Origin: Micromonospora profundi
GTDB lineage: Bacteria; Actinomycetota; Actinomycetes; Mycobacteriales; Micromonosporaceae
DNA length: 64,000 bases
Reading direction: 5' to 3'
Assembly: GCF_011927785.1 (NCBI RefSeq)
Contig: NZ_JAATJK010000001.1
Coordinates: 6,450,501 to 6,514,500, forward strand
Of the stretch, positions 7,000 to 9,897 are shown in pieces (positions within the stretch are counted from its first letter, which is position 1; each line of letters starts with the position of its first letter). The position numbers and the translations under genes were made by a program. The notes below the pieces were generated by a model, which saw only the letters and a program-made list of their open reading frames with translations, had not been told where the DNA came from and searched no databases.

Positions 7000-7157
7000 C
7001 CGCACTCCCACCGCGCGTCGCCGGGGCCTCGACGAGGCGGCCCCGGCGACGCGCCGTGCTCGTCACCCGTCCTGGCCTGGTCGGTTAGCTCACAGCGTGG
7101 GATCAGCGCTGGATGCGACGGCCGCCGGTGCCTAGAATCGGCGGCACAACTGAATAC

Positions 7158-7289
7158 CTCATCCAGAGGGGCTGAGGGATACGGCCCGACGACGCCCCGG
7201 CAACCACCCCGCGCGCTCACCGCTGAGCGACCCGTGGGGCAGGTGCCAATTCCGTCCCTGCCGCACCGTGCGATGCGGGGAAAGATGAG
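7158..7289 (+). ncRNA. SAM-I (S-box) riboswitch upstream of thrC
   Basis: The segment matches the S-box core. P1 strands CTCATC (7158-7163) and GATGAG (7284-7289) enclose the kink-turn core AGAGGGGCTGAGGGA, then GGCCCGACGA, then CGGCAACC, and the junction GGTGCCAATTCC. The 3' strand of P1 runs directly into the ribosome site GAGAGG (7287-7292) of thrC at 7302. Closing P1 with bound SAM should therefore hide the ribosome site, which predicts translational repression. No terminator hairpin is seen between the aptamer and the gene. Confidence 0.92.
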
Positions 7290-7301
7290 AGGACTCTCGA
7301 C

Positions 7302-8588
7302 ATGACGTCGACGCTCGCCGCCTCCGGCATCGACACCTCCGCCAGCCCCGCCCGCGCCCTGGTCTGCCGCGCCTGTTCGGCCCGCTACCCGCTCGCCGCG
7401 CAGCACGCCTGCTACGAGTGTTTCGGCCCGCTGGAGGTCGACTACGACACCGCCGCCCTAGCCACCGTCACCCGCGAGCAGATCGAGGCCGGCCCGAACA
7501 ACATCTGGCGGTACGCCGCGCTGCTGCCCGCCGGTCAGGACCCGGCCACCCGGGTCACCGTCAACCCCGGTCTGACGCCGCTGGTGGCGGCCCCGCACCT
7601 CGCCGCCGAGCTGGGCATCACCGCGCCGCTCTGGGTCAAGGACGACAGCGCCAATCCCACCCACTCGTTCAAGGACCGGGTCGTGTCGGTGGCGCTCACC
7701 GCCGCCAAGGCGCTCGGCTTCACCCGGTTCGCCTGCGCGTCGACAGGCAACCTGGCCAACTCGGTGGCCGCGCACGCCGCCCGGGCCGGGGTGCCCTCGA
7801 TTGTCTTCATCCCCAGCGACCTGGAACAGGGCAAGGTCATCACCACCGCCGTCTACGGCGGCGAACTCGTCGCCATCGACGGCTCGTACGACGACGTGAA
7901 CAGGCTCTGCGGCGAGCTGGTCGAGACCGACGAGTTCGAGGACACCGCGTTCGTCAACGTCAACGTCCGGCCGTACTACGCGGAGGGCTCCAAGACCCTC
8001 GGCTACGAGGTCGCCGAACAGCTCGGCTGGCGGATCCCCGCCCAGGTGGTCATCCCGATGGCCAGCGGCGAGCTGCTCACCAAGATTGACAAGGCGTTCT
8101 CCGAGCTTGTCGAGATCGGCCTGGTCGAGGCGCCGGCCGGTGGCTGGAAGGTCTTCGGCGCCCAGTCGGCCGGCTGCAACCCGATCGCCTCGGCGCTGCA
8201 CGCCGACACCGACACCATCACCCCGGTCAAGCCGACAGGCATCGCCAAGTCCCTCAACATCGGTGACCCGGCCGCCGGCCTCTACGCGCTGGAGGCGGTC
8301 CGTCGCACCGGCGGCTGGATGGAGTACGTCGACGACGACGAGATCCGTGCCGGCATCCGCGACCTGGCCCGCACCACCGGGGTCTTCGCCGAGACCGCGG
8401 GTGGCGTCACCGTGGCGGTACTGCGCAAGCTTGTCGAGTCCGGTCGGCTCGACCCGACGGCCGAGACTGTCGTGTTCAACACCGGCGAAGGGCTGAAGAC
8501 CATCGACGCCGTGGCCGGTCAGGTCGGCCCGACCCACCACATCAAGCCCTCTCTGCGCGCCGCCCGCGACGCCGGTCTCCTCGGCTGA
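7302..8588 (+). CDS. thrC: Threonine synthase (PLP-dependent, zinc-ribbon type)
   Basis: This 428-residue enzyme converts O-phosphohomoserine to threonine and phosphate in the cytoplasm. A four-cysteine ribbon (Cys22, Cys25, Cys37, Cys40) precedes the fold type II PLP domain. NPTHSFKDR carries the PLP lysine Lys124, and ASTGNLANS is the phosphate-binding loop. Length and ribbon fit the archaeal/plant-like class of threonine synthases. The gene is alone and not next to hom or thrB; a second thrC could sit in such a cluster elsewhere. The SAM-I riboswitch directly upstream implies that high SAM lowers its expression. Start ATG 7302 has GAGAGGA at good spacing. Confidence 0.93.
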   Translation: MTSTLAASGIDTSASPARALVCRACSARYPLAAQHACYECFGPLEVDYDTAALATVTREQIEAGPNNIWRYAALLPAGQDPATRVTVNPGLTPLVAAPHLAAELGITAPLWVKDDSANPTHSFKDRVVSVALTAAKALGFTRFACASTGNLANSVAAHAARAGVPSIVFIPSDLEQGKVITTAVYGGELVAIDGSYDDVNRLCGELVETDEFEDTAFVNVNVRPYYAEGSKTLGYEVAEQLGWRIPAQVVIPMASGELLTKIDKAFSELVEIGLVEAPAGGWKVFGAQSAGCNPIASALHADTDTITPVKPTGIAKSLNIGDPAAGLYALEAVRRTGGWMEYVDDDEIRAGIRDLARTTGVFAETAGGVTVAVLRKLVESGRLDPTAETVVFNTGEGLKTIDAVAGQVGPTHHIKPSLRAARDAGLLG

Positions 8589-8694
8589 CGTCCACCGCCG
8601 GTCGGGGGCGGGGGATCGCCCGGACGGGGGATCGGGCCGATCCGCCCTGTAACTGGCTTTTCGCAGTGAGTGTAGAAAACCCGCCGCTGCGGAC

Positions 8695-8723
8695 TTGACG
8701 ACAGGAACCGGACGGCGCAAGAT
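8695..8723 (+). promoter_or_regulatory. Strong housekeeping sigma promoter for the structured RNA
   Basis: TTGACG (8695-8700) and CAAGAT (8718-8723) are separated by exactly 17 bases, close to the ideal actinobacterial housekeeping promoter. Transcription should begin near 8730, inside the gene-free region and about 148 bases before the next start codon. Confidence 0.7.
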
Positions 8724-8730
8724 GCTCCGT

Positions 8731-8857
8731 GCGGGAGGGCATTTCGCCGGAGACTTTTGAAGTTCTTGCGACCCAACGCCGGAGGCGTTGTGCGAGTGTC
8801 CCTCCCGACCACGTCCGATCGGGCCACCGGATTAATTCGGTGGCCCGATCGCTTTTC
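8731..8857 (+). ncRNA. Candidate structured small RNA or orphan riboswitch
   Basis: The transcript predicted from the promoter at 8695-8723 has no ORF of note and folds well by eye. An outer stem pairs GGGAGGG (8733-8739) with CCCTCCC (8800-8806). Inside are a short hairpin (8752-8764) and a long one (8765-8796) whose two helices, 6 and 7 bp, flank a three-base ACC bulge. It ends in a strong intrinsic terminator (8816-8856). The following acetyltransferase starts only about 20 bases after the terminator. The element could therefore be a free small RNA or a terminating riboswitch for that gene. It does not match tRNA, 6C or SRP RNA as I know them. Confidence 0.55.
8816..8856 (+). terminator. 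Intrinsic terminator of the structured RNA
   Basis: A perfect 14-bp stem (8816-8829 with 8838-8851) with an 8-base loop is followed by CTTTTC. It lies upstream of the acetyltransferase gene, not after one, which is why it suggests a separate RNA or an attenuator. Confidence 0.8.
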
Positions 8858-8877
8858 CCGGTGACAGGCTCGCCGGC

Positions 8878-9897
8878 ATGAGCATCACGATCGCGTCCTT
8901 CGACGGCGCCGACCGGGCCGCTGTCGACGAGGCGTACCGGATCGGCGCGGCCGCCAACGACGTCGACATGCCGGACTTCCCGCCGTTCTGCCGGCGTCGC
9001 TTCGACGCGCTGTTCCACACGCCGATGCCCGGCACCGAGTCGCTCTGGGCGCTGGCCCGGCTGGACGGCGTACCGGCCGGCTACCTGCAACTGGACCTGC
9101 CCCAGCTCGACAACACCGACAACGCGACAGTCGAGCTGACGGTGCATCCCGAGCTGCGGCGTCGCGGCGTCGGCCGGGCACTGCACGAGTACGGGGTACG
9201 CCTGCTGCGCGAGCACGGACGCAAGCGGGTGGTCGGGATGACCGTCTCCACGATGCCCGACGGGCCGCCCCGATCAGTGGCGGGTGACGCGTTCGCCGCC
9301 ACGATAGGAGCCCAGGCCGCGCTTGTCGACGTGCGTCGCCGACTCGACATCGACAGCATCGACCGGGTCGCGCTGCGCGCTGCGCTCGCCGAGGCCCACA
9401 CCATGGCCGAGGGCTATCAGTCCGTCACCTGGCAGGGTGCGACCCCGACGGAGTACCTGGCGGACATCGCCTATCTGGACGGCCGACTGCTCATCGACGC
9501 GCCAATGGGCGACGTGCAGTGGGAGCCGGAGCAGGTCGACGCCGAACGCATCCGGGGCACCGACCGGGCGTTGGAGGCCAGGGGCCGGCGGCGCTACCAC
9601 CTCGGGATGCGACACGAGGCGTCCGGTCGGCTTGTCGCCTGGACCCTGCTCGACGTGGGCGCCAGCGCAGACTGGCACGCCTTCCAGCAGATCACCATCG
9701 TCGACCCCGCTCACCGTGGGCACCGGCTCGGTCTGCTCGCCAAGATCGAAAATCTGCATCACCTGCTCACCCACGAGCCGGCGGTACGCGTCGTCGACAC
9801 CTTCAACGCGGCAAGCAACAGTTACATGGTGGCGATCAACGAGCGGCTCGGCTTCCGCCCGGTGGACTCCTGGAACAACTGGCAGCTCACCCTCTGA
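8878..9897 (+). CDS. GNAT acetyltransferase, tandem-domain
   Basis: This 339-residue protein has two GNAT folds. The N-terminal one contains the acetyl-CoA loop RRRGVGRAL (about 100-108). The C-terminal one has a PAHRGHRLG loop and a closing ASNSYMVAINERLGF segment. The tandem arrangement recalls mycothiol synthase-like and other actinobacterial double-GNAT proteins, but a dedicated mshD is present at 43.4 kb, so the acceptor here is unknown. No clear ribosome site precedes ATG 8878. It may be read from the promoter at 8695 when the terminator is bypassed. Confidence 0.85.
   Translation: MSITIASFDGADRAAVDEAYRIGAAANDVDMPDFPPFCRRRFDALFHTPMPGTESLWALARLDGVPAGYLQLDLPQLDNTDNATVELTVHPELRRRGVGRALHEYGVRLLREHGRKRVVGMTVSTMPDGPPRSVAGDAFAATIGAQAALVDVRRRLDIDSIDRVALRAALAEAHTMAEGYQSVTWQGATPTEYLADIAYLDGRLLIDAPMGDVQWEPEQVDAERIRGTDRALEARGRRRYHLGMRHEASGRLVAWTLLDVGASADWHAFQQITIVDPAHRGHRLGLLAKIENLHHLLTHEPAVRVVDTFNAASNSYMVAINERLGFRPVDSWNNWQLTL

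Follow-up and report, generated by a model that had tools for sequence, protein, structure and literature searches.

Structured RNAs of several described kinds provide points of comparison for the locus reported here. In Streptomyces coelicolor the small RNA Ms1 is about 230 nt long and is encoded at the locus sco3558-sco3559, and a table row lists Micromonosporaceae genera in the Ms1 search (both from excerpts of PMC9130861). SAM-I and similar riboswitches have a multi-branched fold followed by a terminator, and comparative genomics has yielded orphan structured RNAs that were found by their conserved structure and have no known function. The Micromonosporaceae are known for their antibiotic producers, and the host of the present locus, Micromonospora profundi, is a soil actinobacterium.

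The DNA analysed, referred to as the window, is a stretch of 64,000 nt of M. profundi DNA (contig NZ_JAATJK010000001.1, positions 6,450,501 to 6,514,500, forward strand). Within it, the spacer between thrC and an acetyltransferase gene contains a promoter, a folded region and, just ahead of CTTTT, a 16-bp hairpin. A sequence-only reading had described an orphan structured RNA at 8695-8857, between these two genes; the sequence is present there, and TIGR00260 and PF00583 identify the neighbours. On comparative sequence evidence, we hold with high confidence that this is a real, free-standing structured RNA gene. The features of the locus are as follows.

7156-7291, upstream of thrC: SAM-I riboswitch (RF00162, 71.8 bits)
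7302-8588, + strand: thrC (TIGR00260 above cut-off)
8649-8680, + strand: upstream conserved element GTAACTGGCTTTTCGCAGTGAGTGTAGAAAAC, set 46 nt before the -35 box
8695-8723, + strand: RNA promoter, with -35 box TTGACG at 8695-8700, a 17 nt spacing and -10 box CAAGAT at 8718-8723
8731-8811, + strand: RNA core, a three-way junction closed by stem P1, with GACCA at its end
8732-8744, + strand: closing stem P1, 5' strand (partner 8794-8807)
8745-8770, + strand: hairpin P2, which differs among genera
8774-8790, + strand: hairpin P3, CAACGCC-GGA-GGCGUUG, conserved near Micromonospora and variable further away
8794-8807, + strand: closing stem P1, 3' strand
8807-8811, + strand: tail GACCA, made up of the last stem base, A and CCA; invariant, with variable bases following
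8816-8856, + strand: terminator-like hairpin of 16 bp with a 4-nt loop (stem-loop 8816-8851) and CTTTT after it, -31.3 kcal/mol
8832-8870, + strand: probable leaderless promoter of the acetyltransferase, TTAATTCGGTGGC at 8832-8844 and CAGGCT at 8865-8870, overlapping the terminator
8878-9897, + strand: GNAT acetyltransferase, 339 aa (PF00583)

The RNA was found in 37 of the 44 genera sampled from the Micromonosporaceae. With blastn, positions 8690-8865 matched 38 of 61 relatives, namely 36 of the 37 that belong to the same genus and, by short matches, two that do not, and within the family 170 of 300 genomes from 21 of 44 genera. In G009, the one genome of the genus left unmatched, thrC sits at the end of a contig. 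A covariance model, R1, built from an alignment of 34 sequences (A1), matched 96 of 150 family genomes in 28 of 44 genera, with one match each (E <= 0.001), and a second model, R2, was run on 20 family genomes that had no R1 match; thrC could be placed in 18 out of 19 of these. Diverged RNAs directly downstream of thrC were recovered in genera g29, g49 and g62 (R2 E values of 1.7e-5, 0.011 and 0.003), the latter two being counted for their position after thrC, and in g60 blastn matches 57 bases at a locus (L082) that R2 also matches weakly. Further members were spotted by eye in g33, g34, g35 and g36, and by pattern in g26; in these five of the 37 genera neither R1 nor R2 matches at the place recognised near thrC, and a weak R2 hit that a g33 genome (G107) has elsewhere was left out. 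Among the other seven genera, one genome is 69% complete and has no thrC match. G104, from the same genus as G063, has no R2 match, and no RNA was seen in it over the 430 nt that follow thrC. In the M. profundi genome no second match to the core was seen at the thresholds used.

Beyond the family, R1 returned 23 matches from 200 genomes of the order, all in Micromonosporaceae, and three from 296 genomes of the phylum, of which two are in the same genus and one is a partial 28-bit match in G654 that is taken as chance; R2 returned three from 246 genomes of the class, all in the same genus, and such searches of more than 40 genomes used stricter filters that lose weak matches. A pattern of promoter, stem and tail was found in 67 of 348 genomes of the order, 16 of them outside the Micromonosporaceae. 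We ascribe these 16 to chance, because eight share one related f16 sequence and a reversed control pattern hit 11 outside genomes. In a DNA pattern scan of named genomes, 80 of 117 stretches were listed, and 25 of these were scored with R1 together with the G654 locus (L140). Twelve of these 26 loci are clear members, all Micromonosporaceae by title or genus; this was looked up for Virgisporangium and Plantactinospora, and the other genera we take to belong to the family. The score was 28.1 bits for L140 and at most 20.6 bits, or none at all, for the other 13 loci, Streptomyces, Nonomuraea and Acrocarpospora among them. The named members include Plantactinospora, Asanoa, Verrucosispora, Planosporangium and Virgisporangium. 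As judged from these searches the RNA family appears limited to the Micromonosporaceae and does not convincingly occur outside them.

The core of the RNA is about 80 nt long, or about 125 nt with the terminator. Positions 8725-8860 fold at -72.4 kcal/mol, against -48.8 +/- 4.1 for shuffled sequences (z -5.8, reached in 0 of 200 shuffles), with the terminator contributing much of this energy. The folded, three-way shape given in the sequence-only reading is borne out across the family: the core by itself forms a three-way junction, with exactly two hairpins within the closing stem, in 84 of 85 distinct members (drawn from 115 loci, window included), and the exception, L074, has three hairpins there. 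Pairwise identity among 57 Micromonospora sequences averages 92% over the core (8730-8811) and 96% over 8695-8729, compared with 88% at the end of thrC, 79% in the terminator, 78% at the start of the acetyltransferase gene and, with gaps scored as differences, 33% in the spacer after thrC. The core is therefore at least as conserved as neighbouring coding DNA (92% versus 88% at the thrC end).

An alignment of relatives and a search for compensatory changes had been proposed at the outset, and the stems proved to be conserved in this way. In alignment A3, of 31 distinct sequences with a 25-pair structure made in this analysis, 96.0% of pair cells are paired and double changes occur at 11 of the 25 pairs, including 6 of 13 in P1 (31 distinct members). 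None of 500 shuffles attained any of five measures, a test in which related sequences can outscore shuffles even without structure. When the partners are slid the paired cells drop to 32-52%, a comparison that favours the A3 structure, as it was partly derived by folding its own sequences. The automatic consensus of A1 has 22 pairs, four of them with double changes. There are 57 G-U cells versus 8 A-C cells, as expected for an RNA of the + strand; by folding energy the + strand is lower in 49 of 85 members, with no clear separation of the strands. Both P2 and P3 alter in length and sequence between genera, P2 throughout and P3 only further out, P3 also being conserved nearer to Micromonospora. 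P2 of the window pairs weakly, with several pair probabilities of 0.2-0.6. At least seven other genera have a longer P2 bearing GAGCUUGGCRACAAUCUC or close forms, with a GNRA-type loop. This element (L071, L073, L080, L146 and others) contains a C-U mismatch and is absent from Micromonospora; a tertiary contact is one possible role for it. A3 has 21 invariant columns. P1, the single base preceding it and the tail account for 18 of them, P3 for two and the foot of P2 for one.

Upstream of the RNA, the -35 box has five of six consensus bases and a conserved position, but the -10 box has only three of six, and the earlier description of the promoter as near-consensus was too strong; a strict promoter scan does not list it. 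The spacing from the -35 box to the stem is constant to within 1 nt in all 85 distinct members, window included, and TTGAC is present at -35 in 78 of them. The weight given to the promoter and to the terminator thus comes from conservation and not from consensus match. We predict an RNA with its own sigma-70-type promoter, active from sequence indications, and a start that is probably at 8729-8731, at the foot of P1. Further upstream, the element at 8649-8680 has 78% mean pairwise identity, versus 33% in the spacer alongside (57 Micromonospora sequences), and is partly kept in other genera, including the loci at which thrC is not adjacent, L064 and L147. Its signal is moderate across all 85 distinct members, its consensus is roughly GTARYYG-N-TTTTGCC-N-GT-N-GAGAAAAC, and no second copy was found in the M. 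profundi genome at up to three mismatches. It may be the site of a regulator, either an activator or operator site.

The terminator had been described as a 14-bp hairpin. A hairpin with a T-tail is there, but its stem is of 16 bp; the tail has four T in its first eight bases, and a generic terminator scan does not list the hairpin. When the 75 nt that follow the RNA are searched for their best hairpin, it exceeds the 5% level of 255 shuffles in 32 of 37 distinct members from Micromonospora and in 12 of 48 from outside that genus. Since the other 36 of those 48 have no hairpin beyond shuffle level, read-through into the next gene is possible outside Micromonospora. A second place in the M. profundi genome (G000:C1:3132113-3132151) resembles the terminator hairpin on both strands, with 83-84% identity.

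The genes around the RNA vary. On the same strand upstream, thrC is present in 113 of the 115 loci, within 81-330 nt in 112 and at 2117 nt in one (L064); in L147 and L148 it was not seen in the upstream stretch examined. An acetyltransferase start was placed downstream in 96 loci, at 43-159 nt in 94 and beyond 1.1 kb in two, and four further loci (L065, L080, L089, L147) have an acetyltransferase match with no start placed. The other 15 have no acetyltransferase match in the downstream DNA examined, which in L150 is only 0.3 kb. At loci without it, as far as crude, GC3-based gene calls indicate, the next gene is paaN (L013, L026, L028, L149) or the closest frame called runs on the opposite strand (e.g. 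L066, L142, L157). In L058 an opposite-strand IS4/5-type transposase frame, identified by Pfam, lies between the RNA and the acetyltransferase gene, and the 5' arm of the terminator remains with the RNA. In five genomes (L286, L287, L288, L290, L292) the acetyltransferase gene directly follows thrC, with no RNA and no R2 match. On the evidence of the 15 loci and the five genomes, either one, RNA or acetyltransferase, can be missing where the other is present. In some Micromonospora relatives (L019, L021, L023, L030 and L095) two acetyltransferase matches lie in a row; the second is of full length in L095 and cut by the end of the locus in the others.

Leaderless promoters are common in actinobacteria, and the acetyltransferase gene probably has one of its own, with an activity predicted from its sequence. 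The -10-like CAGGCT at 8865-8870 sits 7 nt ahead of the ATG at 8878. Among 95 distinct sequences upstream of the acetyltransferase, CASNCT is found 6-8 nt before the start in 72, a TAATTCGSTSGC-like box in 78 and both in 65, and no clear Shine-Dalgarno site was seen there by eye. In L058 and L062 these boxes travel with the acetyltransferase gene, away from the RNA.

What might such an RNA do? The sequence-only reading had allowed for either a trans-acting small RNA or a riboswitch that controls the acetyltransferase gene by terminating transcription. The latter, a riboswitch or attenuator within the 5' leader of that gene, would account for a start that lies 43-159 nt downstream in so many loci and for the terminator that follows the fold in most Micromonospora members. 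As a general explanation it nonetheless fails, and we consider it very improbable: the gene has no match at 15 loci, several of which have opposite-strand frames adjoining the RNA, it occurs without the RNA in five genomes, it probably has its own leaderless promoter, and outside Micromonospora no more than 12 of 48 members have a hairpin that rises beyond shuffle level. Nor is there competing structure. The pairs of P1 and those of the terminator are both near probability 1 in one ensemble, and no alternative pairing between the RNA stem and the terminator was found; as the two coexist in this way, no switch is seen. With gene and RNA separable and no competing structures, riboswitch control of the acetyltransferase is rejected as the general function. 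A regulator tied instead to thrC, whether by processing of its 3' end, through its stability or in feedback with the SAM riboswitch that precedes it, is unlikely to a somewhat lesser degree. The upstream, same-strand thrC of almost every locus speaks for it, as does the SAM-I riboswitch ahead of thrC, found in the window and in seven of the nine deep-branching loci scanned. Against it, the RNA's own promoter separates it from thrC, the RNA is kept where thrC is 2.1 kb off (L064) or unseen upstream (L147, L148), and in several genera thrC is present without the RNA. With thrC no more than 330 nt upstream at 112 of the 115 loci, the RNA may still have some local role linked to it. Apart from the RNA, control of threonine synthase by S-adenosylmethionine in the Micromonosporaceae would be worth a look.

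A trans-acting, independent RNA agrees better with the separate promoter, the structure with its double changes and the changing neighbours. We propose a free-standing small RNA, acting in trans, whose own sigma-70-type promoter would start transcription at the foot of P1; a protein would recognise it through the stem and the CCA tail, the RNA serving as decoy or scaffold, and in Micromonospora transcription would stop at the hairpin that overlaps the acetyltransferase promoter. That the RNA works mainly by binding protein, and not as an antisense RNA or riboswitch, strikes us from the sequence comparison as an evenly balanced proposition. Protein binding is favoured over antisense action because, across genera, the stem and the GACCA tail are kept while both hairpins change. 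An antisense small RNA, in which unpaired parts of P2 and the junction would pair with mRNAs in trans, is an explanation that we think possible although not probable. It would suit the RNA's own promoter and the intrinsic terminator of Micromonospora, as in a classical small RNA, and within that genus the whole core is conserved and P2 of the window is paired with low certainty. Antisense pairing may occur within a single genus. The change of P2 and P3 between genera tells against it, as do the placing of 18 of the 21 invariant A3 columns in or beside P1 or the tail and the lack of a second core match in the M. profundi genome at the thresholds used. Finally, the data are at the DNA level, and long overlapping frames span the region, as is usual at this G+C. 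A conserved DNA element or a small protein gene, with no RNA product, is nevertheless hardly credible in view of the 57 G-U versus 8 A-C cells, the double changes, the length differences not divisible by three and the scattered stops. Core lengths range from 80 to 151 nt and a GTG frame stops at many codons (at codon 7 in 24 of 115 loci); in the absence of a conserved reading frame the small protein gene is rejected.

Across genera, it is the closing stem and the tail that the RNA retains. Among the 115 loci the core begins with GCGGGAGG in 111, GCGGGGGG in two and GCGGGGAG in two, and it ends with GACCA in all 115, a tail that is partly built in, given that the search expression demanded CGACCA at the 3' end (95 of 95 loci fit), that the 20 further loci were delimited by covariance model, and that the expressions used for the deep members also demanded a CCA end. 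In the 10 deep-branching members the interior is rebuilt, the promoter is similar and a CGGG-type closing stem is retained; eight of them end in GACCA and two (g34) in GCGCCA. Four deep-branching members (L298, L299, L300, L304) have an interior motif in common, GUCGAGCAGCGCCAGC, that was not seen in the other members compared.

Such an end resembles the acceptor arm of a tRNA, in that N-CCA follows a stem of 7 bp or more. It resembles tRNA-Pro in particular: the RNA has CGGG...CCCG-A, as do all three tRNA-Pro genes of the same genome. A T-arm pattern recovered 40 distinct tRNA genes from that genome; CGGG opens none but these three, each of which has CCCGAC or CCCGACCA at its end. Only 15 of the 40 encode CCA, so an encoded CCA is not the default in this genome. 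Unlike the stem of a tRNA, that of the RNA runs past 7 bp into a three-way junction, and in clade g34 the RNA ends in GCGCCA. There is no T arm, the RNA being absent from the 65 T-arm matches of its own genome, and ARAGORN finds no tRNA or tmRNA gene in the window. A tRNA or tmRNA is rejected on these grounds and for want of a tRNA family match in Rfam.

RNase P reads a stem with CCA, and G72 and A73 matter to bacterial ProRS. By analogy, the RNA might be a mimic of the tRNA acceptor, presenting an N-CCA stem on a freely evolving three-way junction, with CCA as its mature 3' end, and binding a tRNA-handling enzyme so as to tune translation or stress responses. We offer this tentatively, as the boldest of the readings and an unlikely one. 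In most members the mimicking end would be tRNA-Pro-like (C-G...A-CCA), and the partner could be RNase P, a synthetase such as ProRS, an editing or CCA enzyme, or EF-Tu. If true, such mimicry would be a compact new route by which an RNA, itself no tRNA, addresses the tRNA machinery, with a role within one bacterial family.

With a core conserved at least as well as coding DNA and an occurrence in 37 of 44 genera, the RNA must do something useful. The constancy of promoter, stem and CCA tail against the changing hairpins leads to testable predictions on its partners, and a covariance model from A1 or A3 would allow others to annotate the RNA.

As the sequence-only reading had supposed, the RNA fits no named class. 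At gathering scores, Rfam 15 finds only the SAM riboswitch in the whole window; a relaxed scan of 8500-9000 gives three matches, far below gathering scores, and a relaxed scan of the nine deep-branching loci gives SAM in seven and four low matches to unrelated families. Among the literature matches listed, judged by title or the start of the abstract, none describes the RNA or offers RNA-seq data on it, and the words Micromonospora, Salinispora, Actinoplanes and thrC are absent from the main text of PMC8632094, a survey that reports orphan structured RNAs. Ms1/6S identity is rejected, since there is no Rfam match at gathering or relaxed threshold and Ms1 is at another locus.

How, then, does the RNA compare with known systems? 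Like the SAM-I class it has, in Micromonospora, a multi-branched fold and then a terminator, but unlike terminating riboswitches it has no competing structures, no fixed downstream gene and no Rfam match. It is independent of any fixed neighbour: of the 115 loci that keep it, 15 show no match to the acetyltransferase and three have it at a distance from thrC. Ms1 (excerpts of PMC9130861) is likewise a structured, free-standing actinobacterial small RNA, and one that binds protein; where 6S-type RNAs have a long hairpin with a central bubble, the RNA described here has a three-way junction. It also resembles the orphan structured RNAs of comparative genomics, being found by conserved structure and having no known function, and differs from them in its absence from Rfam 15. 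On the comparative evidence, the RNA is a new family of a known kind, the structured small RNA, with an unusual end.
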